Under the pieces are notes generated by a model. It worked only from the letters and a program-made list of their open reading frames with translations, was not told the DNA's origin and made no database searches. Made by a program: the position numbers and the translations under genes. From a virus, in the IMG/VR virus record IMGVR_UViG_3300036760_000162, positions 1 through 42,731 of that record: DNA of 42,731 nucleotides, one strand, 5' to 3'. Positions 18,489 to 20,550 of the stretch are shown in pieces (the stretch's first letter is position 1; the number at the start of each line of letters is the position of its first letter).

Positions 18489-18784
18489 GTAGGCCGCCGC
18501 TGCGCCTGCTGCCGCTCCTGCGAGGCGATGCGGCCCCCGCGACTGATGGAGCGACGTGGCTTGTTCGCACCCTCACTTTGGCATCGCTCGCGCTCGGACA
18601 CGGCTTGGCCAGGCTGCGAGCACCCGGACTCGTCCGCGACTGTGAGATCGCGGACGAGTATTCCGGGCACCACCTACTCATCCAGAGCGGACCGATGTTC
18701 ACGCGGCTAACGATCAACGGCCGAGACTTCTACTTCGATCGCTTCACCGGCAAGTACAGCGGCACCGGATCCGGCTGCCGCTAG
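18485..18784 (+). CDS. Hypothetical protein, 99 aa
   Basis: GTG in a GTGA overlap. After a basic, hydrophobic first half the end reads FTRLTINGRDFYFDRFTGKY and SGTGSG, a strand-rich ending I associate with small phage proteins. It is the last gene before the inverted island; its stop overlaps the stop of the GIY-YIG gene on the other strand. Confidence 0.55.
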   Translation: MSRPPLRLLPLLRGDAAPATDGATWLVRTLTLASLALGHGLARLRAPGLVRDCEIADEYSGHHLLIQSGPMFTRLTINGRDFYFDRFTGKYSGTGSGCR

Positions 18785-19068
18785 CCGACCTTCTTGTTGC
18801 AGTGCGGTTTGTGTTCCAGAATCAGCCGCTTCTCTTCGGCGACGTAATCGTCCGTCACGATGCTGACCCAATGCGTGGGCCGCTCTCCCGTGATGCACGC
18901 GTTGTCGCCGCCGACGTGATCCAACATCCGCTGGCGAATGTCCCCGCTACCGACATAGACCCAGTGGCCGTTGGCGACGTAGATGCCGTAGCAGCCGTTC
19001 TGTCCCGGATTCAGCCTGAGAACAGCCTCACGGGTGAACGGCCGGGCCTGCTGTTGAGGGAAAGGCAT
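18781..19068 (-). CDS. GIY-YIG endonuclease, minimal
   Basis: 95 residues from the ATG at 19068; a longer in-frame reading passes through the tRNA and is not real. It has a GIY-YIG domain: CYGIYVANGHWVYVGSG (GIY and YVG in place of YIG), then the catalytic Arg in DIRQRMLDH, and the metal-binding Glu in KRLILEHKP. There is almost nothing else, so no separate DNA-binding domain. Such enzymes act as homing nucleases or as resistance or exclusion factors. It is opposite in direction to the surrounding early genes and 121 bases downstream of a tRNA on the same strand, which suggests a transferred unit. Confidence 0.85.
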   Translation of the reverse strand: MPFPQQQARPFTREAVLRLNPGQNGCYGIYVANGHWVYVGSGDIRQRMLDHVGGDNACITGERPTHWVSIVTDDYVAEEKRLILEHKPHCNKKVG

Positions 19069-19189: not shown

Positions 19190-19275
19190 TGCGCCCGTCC
19201 GGGTTCGAACCGGAACGCGAAAAACTTCGCCGGGAGTTCCAAGCTCCCTGCGTCTACCAGTTTCGCCACGGGCGC
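19190..19275 (-). tRNA. tRNA with leucine-type body and UGG anticodon
   Basis: All parts are perfect on the minus strand: acceptor GCGCCCG/CGGGCGC with discriminator A; D-arm GCG-AAACTGGTAGA-CGC; anticodon arm GGGAG-CTTGGAA-CTCCC; a long variable arm (GCGAA-GTTT-TTCGC); T-arm TCCGG-TTCGAAC-CCGGA. No CCA is encoded. The long variable arm makes it class II (Leu, Ser or Tyr), and the D-arm with its TGGCGAAA lead-in is that of bacterial tRNA-Leu. The seven-base loop gives C32 U33 U34 G35 G36 A37 A38, so the anticodon is UGG, proline. Leucine charging is the likely outcome (see findings). Confidence 0.85.
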
Positions 19276-19303: not shown

Positions 19304-19355
19304 GCGAGGGTGAGCGCCCGTCTTGACCCTGTGGGCTCACCCTCGCTTTTGTTTT
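19304..19355 (+). terminator. Strong rho-independent terminator (plus strand)
   Basis: A 12-base perfect stem, GCGAGGGTGAGC at 19304-19315 with GCTCACCCTCGC at 19335-19346, followed by TTTTGTTTT. It ends rightward transcription that has passed the 18784 gene and the antisense of the tRNA island. Confidence 0.85.
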
Positions 19356-19702: not shown

Positions 19703-19915
19703 ATGACCCGCGTCCCGCCCGAGGCCGTCGCCGCCTTCGCCACCTCCACCGATCCGCGCGAGTGCGAACCGCGCGACCTCGCGGCCGACCTCATCGAGGC
19801 GCGGGTGCAGGTTCGCGGCTGGCTCGCGTTCCTGTCGCAGTTCCCCCACAACGCCGATTGCCGCGTCGTCATCGCCGAGATGCGCGCTTGGCTCAAGGAC
19901 CGACCAGCGCCGTGA
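19703..19915 (+). CDS. Hypothetical protein, 70 aa
   Basis: Preceded by a strong AAAGGAGG site. Helical: PPEAVAAFATST, then LAADLIEARVQVRGWLAFL and CRVVIAEMRAWLKD. Overlaps the methyltransferase start by GTGA. No family recognised. Confidence 0.55.
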   Translation: MTRVPPEAVAAFATSTDPRECEPRDLAADLIEARVQVRGWLAFLSQFPHNADCRVVIAEMRAWLKDRPAP

Positions 19916-20550
19916 AGCCCTACTACGAGCACGCGGGGATCACGATCTATCACGGTGACTGCCGGGAGGTGCTGCCTCACGTTCAGGCGGACGTGCTCGT
20001 GACCGACCCGCCGTATGGAATGGCGTTCGTGTCGTCCAAGACGACACGGCGACCAATCACAAACGACCACGACTCGTCAGCGCGCGACGAAGTGTTGGCC
20101 GTGTGGGGAGAGCGACCCGCCCTAGTATTCGGCAACTGGCGCGTTCCTAGGCCGCCCGCAACACGGCAGCTAATCACTTGGTTCAAGTCCAGCGTCGGCC
20201 CCGGGATGGGCGACCTGTCGCTGCCGTGGGGAAGCGCAACCGAGGAAATATACGTGCTCGGCAACGGCTGGCGCGGGGAGCGCCGCGCGAACTTCATCGA
20301 AACATCCGAGCAGCGCGGCAACCCCTACGGTGCCTCCGCGCTGCTCGGACACCCAACGCCAAAGCCGGTAGGCCTAATGGAGTGGCTGCTTCAATGCGCG
20401 CCCAACGGCGTTGTGCTTGACCCGTTTGCCGGTGTTGGCGCGACGCTCTTGGCCGCGAAGAACCTCGGCCGTCGCGCCATCGGCGTCGAGATCGAGGAAC
20501 GCTACTGCGAGATCGCTGCCAGGCGGCTCGCGCAGGAAATCCTACTCTGA
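19912..20550 (+). CDS. DNA methyltransferase (N4-cytosine/N6-adenine, beta-type order)
   Basis: 212 residues from the GTG at 19912. ITIYHGDCREVLPHV leads to the catalytic motif IV DPPY (residues 32-35) in VTDPPYGMAF. Motif I, DPFAGVGATLLAAK, follows near residue 170 after HPTPKP. Catalytic motif first and SAM motif last is the beta-type order. The target-recognition part between them is short (about 110 residues), as in orphan phage enzymes. No restriction partner is nearby, so it probably protects phage DNA from host nucleases or regulates its own transcription. Amino-methyltransferase specificity (A or C) cannot be read from the sequence. Confidence 0.9.
   Translation: MKPYYEHAGITIYHGDCREVLPHVQADVLVTDPPYGMAFVSSKTTRRPITNDHDSSARDEVLAVWGERPALVFGNWRVPRPPATRQLITWFKSSVGPGMGDLSLPWGSATEEIYVLGNGWRGERRANFIETSEQRGNPYGASALLGHPTPKPVGLMEWLLQCAPNGVVLDPFAGVGATLLAAKNLGRRAIGVEIEERYCEIAARRLAQEILL

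Follow-up and report, generated by a model that had tools for sequence, protein, structure and literature searches.

A phage tRNA with a leucine-type body and a UGG anticodon, one of a recurring set of candidate missense suppressors in phages and transposons

The window, a stretch of viral DNA of 42,731 nucleotides analysed here in full (IMG/VR record IMGVR_UViG_3300036760_000162), carries on its minus strand, at positions 19190..19275, a complete 86-nt class II tRNA gene of a soil-type phage, in which all stems are perfect and a leucine-type body is combined with the anticodon UGG. At least 15 further structurally intact tRNAs with a Leu body and a UGG anticodon were found in unrelated phages and bacteria, some of them within transposons of the IS1595 family. 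We consider it probable, if well short of certain, that the gene is an intact accessory tRNA which reads CCA as a leucine-charged missense suppressor and which moves horizontally as cargo. The recurrence of such tRNAs in unrelated phages and in transposons points away from a decayed gene and towards a mobile tRNA of a "wrong amino acid" kind.

Structure and isotype of the tRNA

The gene extends from G1 at position 19275 to the discriminator base A73 at position 19190, and the CCA tail is absent from the gene. The 5' part of the parsed tRNA reads GCGCCCG UG GCG AAACUGGUAGA CGC A GGGAG CUUGGAA CUCCC and is followed by GGCGAAGUUUUUCGCGU UCCGG UUCGAAC CCGGA CGGGCGC A. All stems are fully paired, namely, the acceptor stem (7/7; GCGCCCG/CGGGCGC in the gene), the D stem (3/3; GCG/CGC), the anticodon stem (5/5; GGGAG/CTCCC) and the T stem (5/5; T arm TCCGG-TTCGAAC-CCGGA), and the claim of the first-pass annotation that every arm of the tRNA is perfect was thus borne out. 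The long variable region (19215..19231, minus strand) comprises 17 nt, includes a 5-bp stem (GCGAA/UUCGC) and ends with U48. The loop C32 U33 U34 G35 G36 A37 A38 occupies positions 19237-19243, and its direct reading as CU-UGG-AA places UGG at 34-36 (19239..19241, minus strand) of a seven-base loop, as had been proposed; ARAGORN likewise reports tgg. Base 37 is A, whereas bacterial tRNA-Pro typically has G37. Minimum free energy folding shows a slight preference for a non-cloverleaf structure (-39.5 kcal/mol) over the cloverleaf (-37.7 kcal/mol). Searches found neither a second copy of this tRNA nor other phages or plasmids, distinct and homologous, that carry it.

ARAGORN labels the gene tRNA-Pro(tgg), a call made from the anticodon. 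By contrast, a Leu covariance model, built from 16 phage class II tRNAs that all have Leu anticodons and with the window tRNA left out, gave the gene 75.6 bits (E = 1.5e-18) when the whole window was scanned, with the next-best site anywhere in the window reaching only 18.6 bits; the Leu-body score is not a chance one. The Pro covariance model, built from 11 phage tRNA-Pro sequences, yielded 24.8 bits, compared with 79-84 bits for true Pro tRNAs. Anticodon-masked profile HMMs, made from ARAGORN-called tRNAs and compared without Arg, Met, Phe and Val models, ranked Leu first (25.8 bits), followed by Gln (9.7 bits), and gave no match for Pro. Since the masked HMMs and the two covariance models favour the Leu body, the mismatch between isotype and anticodon is real in the sequence as given. 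The earlier description of a class II leucine body with the D-arm of tRNA-Leu therefore holds, and the check proposed along with it, a comparison of isotype models that looked for a good Pro score, did not overturn it. The Rfam model RF00005 had no match to the tRNA up to E = 10, the gathering score of 29 bits being missed, and it matches 10/10 other viral records tested; because the class II Leu model matches strongly, the miss is attributable to the general model or to its filters, although it still counts against the gene. Annotation by anticodon, as in the tRNA-Pro call of ARAGORN, hides genes of the Leu-body/UGG kind.

Identity elements and CCA codons

Bacterial tRNA-Leu is recognized via A73, A15-U48, G18G19 and tertiary contacts between the D and T loops, the anticodon being unused, and bacterial tRNA-Pro requires A73, G72, G15:C48, G35, G36 and G37 (PMC9976931). 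The window tRNA displays all the Leu determinants checked (A73, the A15-U48 Levitt pair, G18G19 and the long variable arm), has C2-G71, which acts against SerRS, and bears UGG at 34-36 in place of a leucine anticodon (A35). From the Pro list it has only A73, G35 and G36; it carries G1-C72 rather than C1-G72, A15-U48 rather than G15:C48 and A37 rather than G37, and its body does not score as a class I tRNA with the Pro model (24.8 bits versus about 80). With the Leu list complete and only part of the Pro list present, leucine charging is better predicted for this tRNA than proline charging. The first-pass annotation had arrived at leucine charging on the grounds that bacterial LeuRS uses the body and A73 rather than the anticodon, and that Escherichia coli ProRS needs G72 with A73, base 72 being C here. 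The published bacterial identity sets likewise predict charging by LeuRS, and poor charging by ProRS (PMC9976931), and G1-C72 was recovered in the parsed structure.

The further suggestion, that the tRNA might serve phage genes with a particular use of CCA, was not supported. Among codon columns with at least 3 homologous residues, 27 of the 31 CCA columns have a proline majority, which rules out reassignment of CCA to leucine in this phage, and the mean proline frequency is the same for CCA (0.71), CCC (0.71) and CCG (0.71). In the structural genes, CCA constitutes 7.8% of proline codons, a value lying within the range of relatives without the tRNA (2.6-15.9%), so that avoidance of CCA owing to the tRNA is ruled out and CCA is not enriched either. 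The presence of CCA at conserved prolines, without avoidance, fits only a weak or conditional activity of the tRNA. Because CCA is neither reassigned nor avoided, leucine insertion, if there is any, would be a minority event or a conditional one.

Genomic context

The record is a linear viral contig of 42.7 kb. Its head and portal genes, which are podovirus-like, occupy the minus strand, the plus strand bearing small genes of early type; the capsid gene is common to 45 viral contigs. BLAST matched the window tRNA in none of 34 related phage records, and ARAGORN detected no convincing tRNA in the examined parts of related phages, the "tRNA-His" that it reported in L217/L225 (L numbers designate our records) being a false positive which falls in coding sequence. 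The region from approximately 12.5 to 22.5 kb, including the tRNA, is hardly shared with the related phages. With no relative carrying the tRNA and with its surroundings barely shared, the tRNA is, judging from these comparisons, an accessory gene located in a variable region rather than a feature of the lineage.

The tRNA is followed on its own strand by an ORF of 95 aa for a small GIY-YIG-like nuclease (18781..19068, minus strand), the sequence of which shows GIY...YVG, R, E and N and matches PF01541 with E = 0.0028 and 18.3 bits, under the Pfam cut-off of 22.6. On the other side, 28 nt upstream of the 5' end of the tRNA, there is a 12-bp inverted repeat (19304..19346), which is probably a terminator of rightward transcripts, because a plus-strand T-run comes next. 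No sigma-70-like promoter was found on the tRNA strand in the scanned region. A post hoc comparison showed a strong hairpin at most 120 nt upstream in 7 of 17 UGG, AGG or UUA tRNAs and in 4 of 111 Leu-anticodon tRNAs, the former being those of the window (19304-19346), L027, L040, L055, L168, L252 and L339.

The accessory region that contains the tRNA also encodes a phage N6/N4 DNA methyltransferase with a DPPY motif (19912-20550). DUF5131 and N6/N4 methyltransferase genes were considered as partners of the tRNAs and rejected: they are common to a few loci, yet are ordinary phage genes. No integrase was present among 25 of 45 PHROG families listed and none was indicated by predicted-gene size, in a contig that is perhaps incomplete.

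Recurrence of Leu-body tRNAs with non-Leu anticodons

Whereas the first-pass annotation had presented the tRNA as a single oddity, the search for relatives in other phages that it recommended was productive, and the tRNA belongs to a set that recurs, in large part with linkage to IS1595 elements. Structure-checked loci from viral contigs and a bacterial genome sample include at least 13 distinct class II UGG tRNAs with a Leu D-arm, counting that of the window, and 392 genomes of Planctomycetota, the phylum of L099, contributed 3 more Leu-body UGG tRNAs (L685, L686 and L688). The first pattern scans, which relied on 14 fixed bases, returned 171 loci, mostly chance matches, from which only loci folding as tRNAs were retained; a pattern for native tRNA-Pro (GNWGNGC...TTGG) was too loose for use. 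The Leu covariance model assigned 65-80 bits to every one of 18 other tRNAs, including 3 of the AGG or UUA type. The variable arms of the set range from 14 to 33 nt, and mutual identity is mostly about 70-75% where the tRNAs can be aligned. Because the arms differ in length and mutual identity is generally low, comparison of the sequences suggests independent origins of the Leu-body UGG tRNAs, with a single lineage being unlikely.

The strict combination of a G1-C72 pair and A73 is found in 12 of 16 Leu-body UGG tRNAs, and 11 of the first 13 UGG tRNAs have A37, the scan pattern having also allowed G37. In L168 and L341 the first pair is C1-G72, as in tRNA-Pro, and these two may be long-armed proline tRNAs. 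The class II UGG tRNA with C1-G72 at L168:2981-3063, which neighbours nusA in a MAG of 0.6 Mb, is possibly the tRNA-Pro of the organism itself. Besides UGG, Leu bodies also bear UUA, which reads ochre, as well as AGG, GUC and further non-Leu anticodons. UGG is the commonest of the non-Leu anticodons in the complete scan and accounts for 3 of 12 among the matches listed in a second sample; its excess is suggestive. The candidates for mismatched tRNAs at first also included class II tRNAs for Asn, Gln and His in which the D-arm is Leu-like; these were dropped, their acceptor ends (U1-A72/G73, G-1:C73) identifying them as true isotypes.

Association with IS1595-family transposons

Nine Leu-body UGG tRNAs adjoin an IS1595-family transposase or a remnant of one, and 3 of these lie within complete elements. 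With linkage defined as an antisense transposase 3' of the tRNA, whether whole or reduced to a C-terminal remnant, 10 of 27 mismatched tRNAs with A73 are linked to IS1595, compared with 0 of 115 Leu-anticodon tRNAs (Fisher p = 1.3e-8), an exploratory association in which the loci were chosen by anticodon, partly among the matches listed, 4 of the 10 linked cases are weak remnants (E = 7e-5 to 0.06) and L029 is included with a transposase farther away than the limit of 1.5 kb. L688, a later find, is likewise linked to IS1595. Complete IS1595 elements with TIRs and a perfect 8-bp target duplication (TSD) enclose a UGG tRNA in L605 (4872-7849; TCTTTCCT), L606 (8958-11659; AATTTTTT) and L099 (3108-6512; AGAGCCGT), and a UUA tRNA in L662 (L662:3408-6294). 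Since they reside inside complete IS1595 elements, the mismatched tRNAs are transposon passengers in several records. The window tRNA differs from the Leu-body UGG, AGG or UUA tRNAs that other records carry as passengers of IS1595 transposons, enclosed by TIRs with 8-bp TSDs, in that no such element, intact or as a remnant, was detected in the window: neither tblastn nor HMM searches revealed an IS1595 transposase or a C-terminal piece of one near the tRNA, and no TIRs with an 8-bp TSD were found around it.

The C-termini of the transposases were compared across L606, L099, L605, L601, L602, L604, L607, L611, L603, L662, L449, L093 and L688. The third codon after the conserved GKRLxY motif is CCA in 7 of the 9 elements linked to a UGG tRNA and, among approximately 56 elements in which no tRNA was detected, in 1 (Fisher p = 4e-7), proline being common at this position in the relevant transposase branch; the same codon is CCT in 2/2 AGG-linked elements and a stop in 2/2 UUA-linked elements. 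Two elements do not fit this match between codon and anticodon, L093, which has CCT with a UGG tRNA, and L688, which has TAT and was found after the idea had been conceived. As a rule, the match failed in L688, the sole later case, and it stands as an unexplained lead. It is conceivable, but in our judgement unlikely, that mobile elements repeatedly evolve Leu-charged tRNAs (UGG, AGG and UUA) as private suppressors, missense or nonsense, that decode particular positions in their own genes, with the window tRNA as a phage-resident member.

Proposed activity and alternative explanations

On the reading that we favour, a leucine-charged missense suppressor, the host LeuRS would charge the window tRNA with leucine, and the host ProRS would charge it poorly if at all, as the identity rules imply. 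If transcribed, the tRNA would insert leucine at CCA and perhaps at other CCN codons, and its competition with the host Pro-tRNA(Pro) would result in low-level Pro-to-Leu substitution, with no new genetic code. Its arrival in the phage would most likely have been as horizontally moving cargo, because the relatives lack the tRNA and comparable tRNAs occur on IS1595 transposons and in other phages. If the tRNAs of this set are leucine-charged, mobile elements bear ready-made missense suppressors, which is relevant to the extent of deliberately ambiguous translation and to the purpose of phage tRNAs.

The gene could instead be an odd tRNA-Pro(UGG) that is charged with proline, provided that the host ProRS leans on G35, G36 and A73, all of which are present, and tolerates the class II body and the G1-C72 pair. 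ProRS of the archaeal type occurs in some bacteria. Archaeal-type identity uses G1-C72 with A73, G35 and G36 (PMC9976931), and L168 and L341, with their Pro-like C1-G72, are class II UGG tRNAs that would suit this explanation. However, the window tRNA lacks G72, G15-C48 and G37, receives only 24.8 bits from the Pro model and departs from most phage tRNA-Pro compared, which keep C1-G72, and three-quarters of the Leu-body UGG tRNAs (12/16) have the strict G1-C72 and A73; proline charging appears improbable. A trivial origin from a phage tRNA-Leu(UAG), by the single replacement of A35 with G, whether as a functionless recent mutation or as a sequencing or assembly error, is similarly doubtful. 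The Leu(UAG) loop CTTAGAA, seen in 7 of 100 sampled, is a single transition away from CTTGGAA, and the window tRNA is known from a single copy, but UGG is found again and again on diverse Leu bodies, mostly together with A37 even though the pattern accepted G37, and the one-step anticodons CGG, GGG and CGA are absent among the intact class II tRNAs listed from the same scans. Moreover, every stem of the window tRNA is intact, and an error in a single record would leave the other Leu-body UGG tRNAs unexplained.

Two further explanations concern functions other than missense decoding. The anticodon might have changed for recognition rather than for decoding, making the tRNA uncut by, or a decoy for, a host anticodon nuclease. 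Such a role would be in line with the proposal that phage tRNAs escape host tRNA nucleases via changes in the anticodon loop (PMC10264068) and with a report in which some retrons are defeated by phage tRNAs (PMC11555353). Nevertheless, we regard it as very unlikely: the known cases keep the decoding identity of the cleaved tRNA, a Leu body reading a Pro codon would replace neither tRNA, and no defence or counter-defence gene was recognised beside the tRNA. As for tRNA-dependent lysogeny, where the phage supplies a substitute for the host tRNA that is disrupted at attB, it is known in actinobacteriophages, including a case involving tRNA-Leu-CAA (PMC10865867), but is disfavoured here to the point of being nearly negligible, with the listed families including no integrase and the predicted genes none of sufficient size, and with a Leu body reading CCA complementing neither Leu nor Pro.

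Comparison with known systems

tRNAs in which body and anticodon are mismatched are known from nematodes and Streptomyces, whereas the phage and transposon cases are undescribed in the literature searched; this applies both to Leu-body UGG tRNAs in phages and to tRNA passengers of IS1595, and the search covered full texts readable without subscription. The nev-tRNAs of nematodes are class II tRNAs that are charged with leucine in vitro and have the anticodons CCC (Gly) or UAU (Ile), with mistranslation being undetectable in Caenorhabditis elegans (PMC4300185). They share with the window tRNA a class II body and an anticodon of another amino acid, but are eukaryotic nuclear genes with other anticodons and are not on mobile elements. 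The tRNA-ProX family of Streptomyces and relatives, which goes with ProRSx, mistranslates when expressed in Escherichia coli (PMC10365949). Like the window tRNA, tRNA-ProX is a natural bacterial tRNA in which body and anticodon disagree; unlike it, tRNA-ProX bears an anticodon for Ala, Asn or Thr on a proline body, a mismatch in the reverse direction, and has a dedicated synthetase gene alongside, whereas none was recognised alongside the window tRNA. The window tRNA thus belongs to neither system, since lineage, direction and context differ.

The engineered tRNASer-UGG, which inserts the wrong residue at proline codons in yeast (PMC6827378, PMC9258585), resembles the window tRNA in its class II body and UGG anticodon, its own charging being independent of the anticodon, and differs in having a serine body, in being engineered and in operating in yeast. 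Phage tRNAs that evade nucleases (PMC10264068) are comparable in their altered anticodon loops, but their decoding identity is kept.

Other features of class II tRNA loci

Many phage tRNA-Asn(GUU) genes (L260, L278, L284, L302, L320, L402 and others) resemble tRNA-Leu in the D-arm and in the length of the variable arm, yet display the Asn ends U1-A72 and G73. A second tRNA, of class I and with an unexpected anticodon, is located near a UUA or AGG class II tRNA at L449:1603-1676 (GCT), L662:4590-4662 (ACC) and L331:340-412 (GCT). Genes for small related proteins resembling coiled-coil/winged-helix proteins adjoin a mismatched tRNA in 3 unrelated records (L007:4421-4858, L449:1720-2184 and L662:4701-5096).
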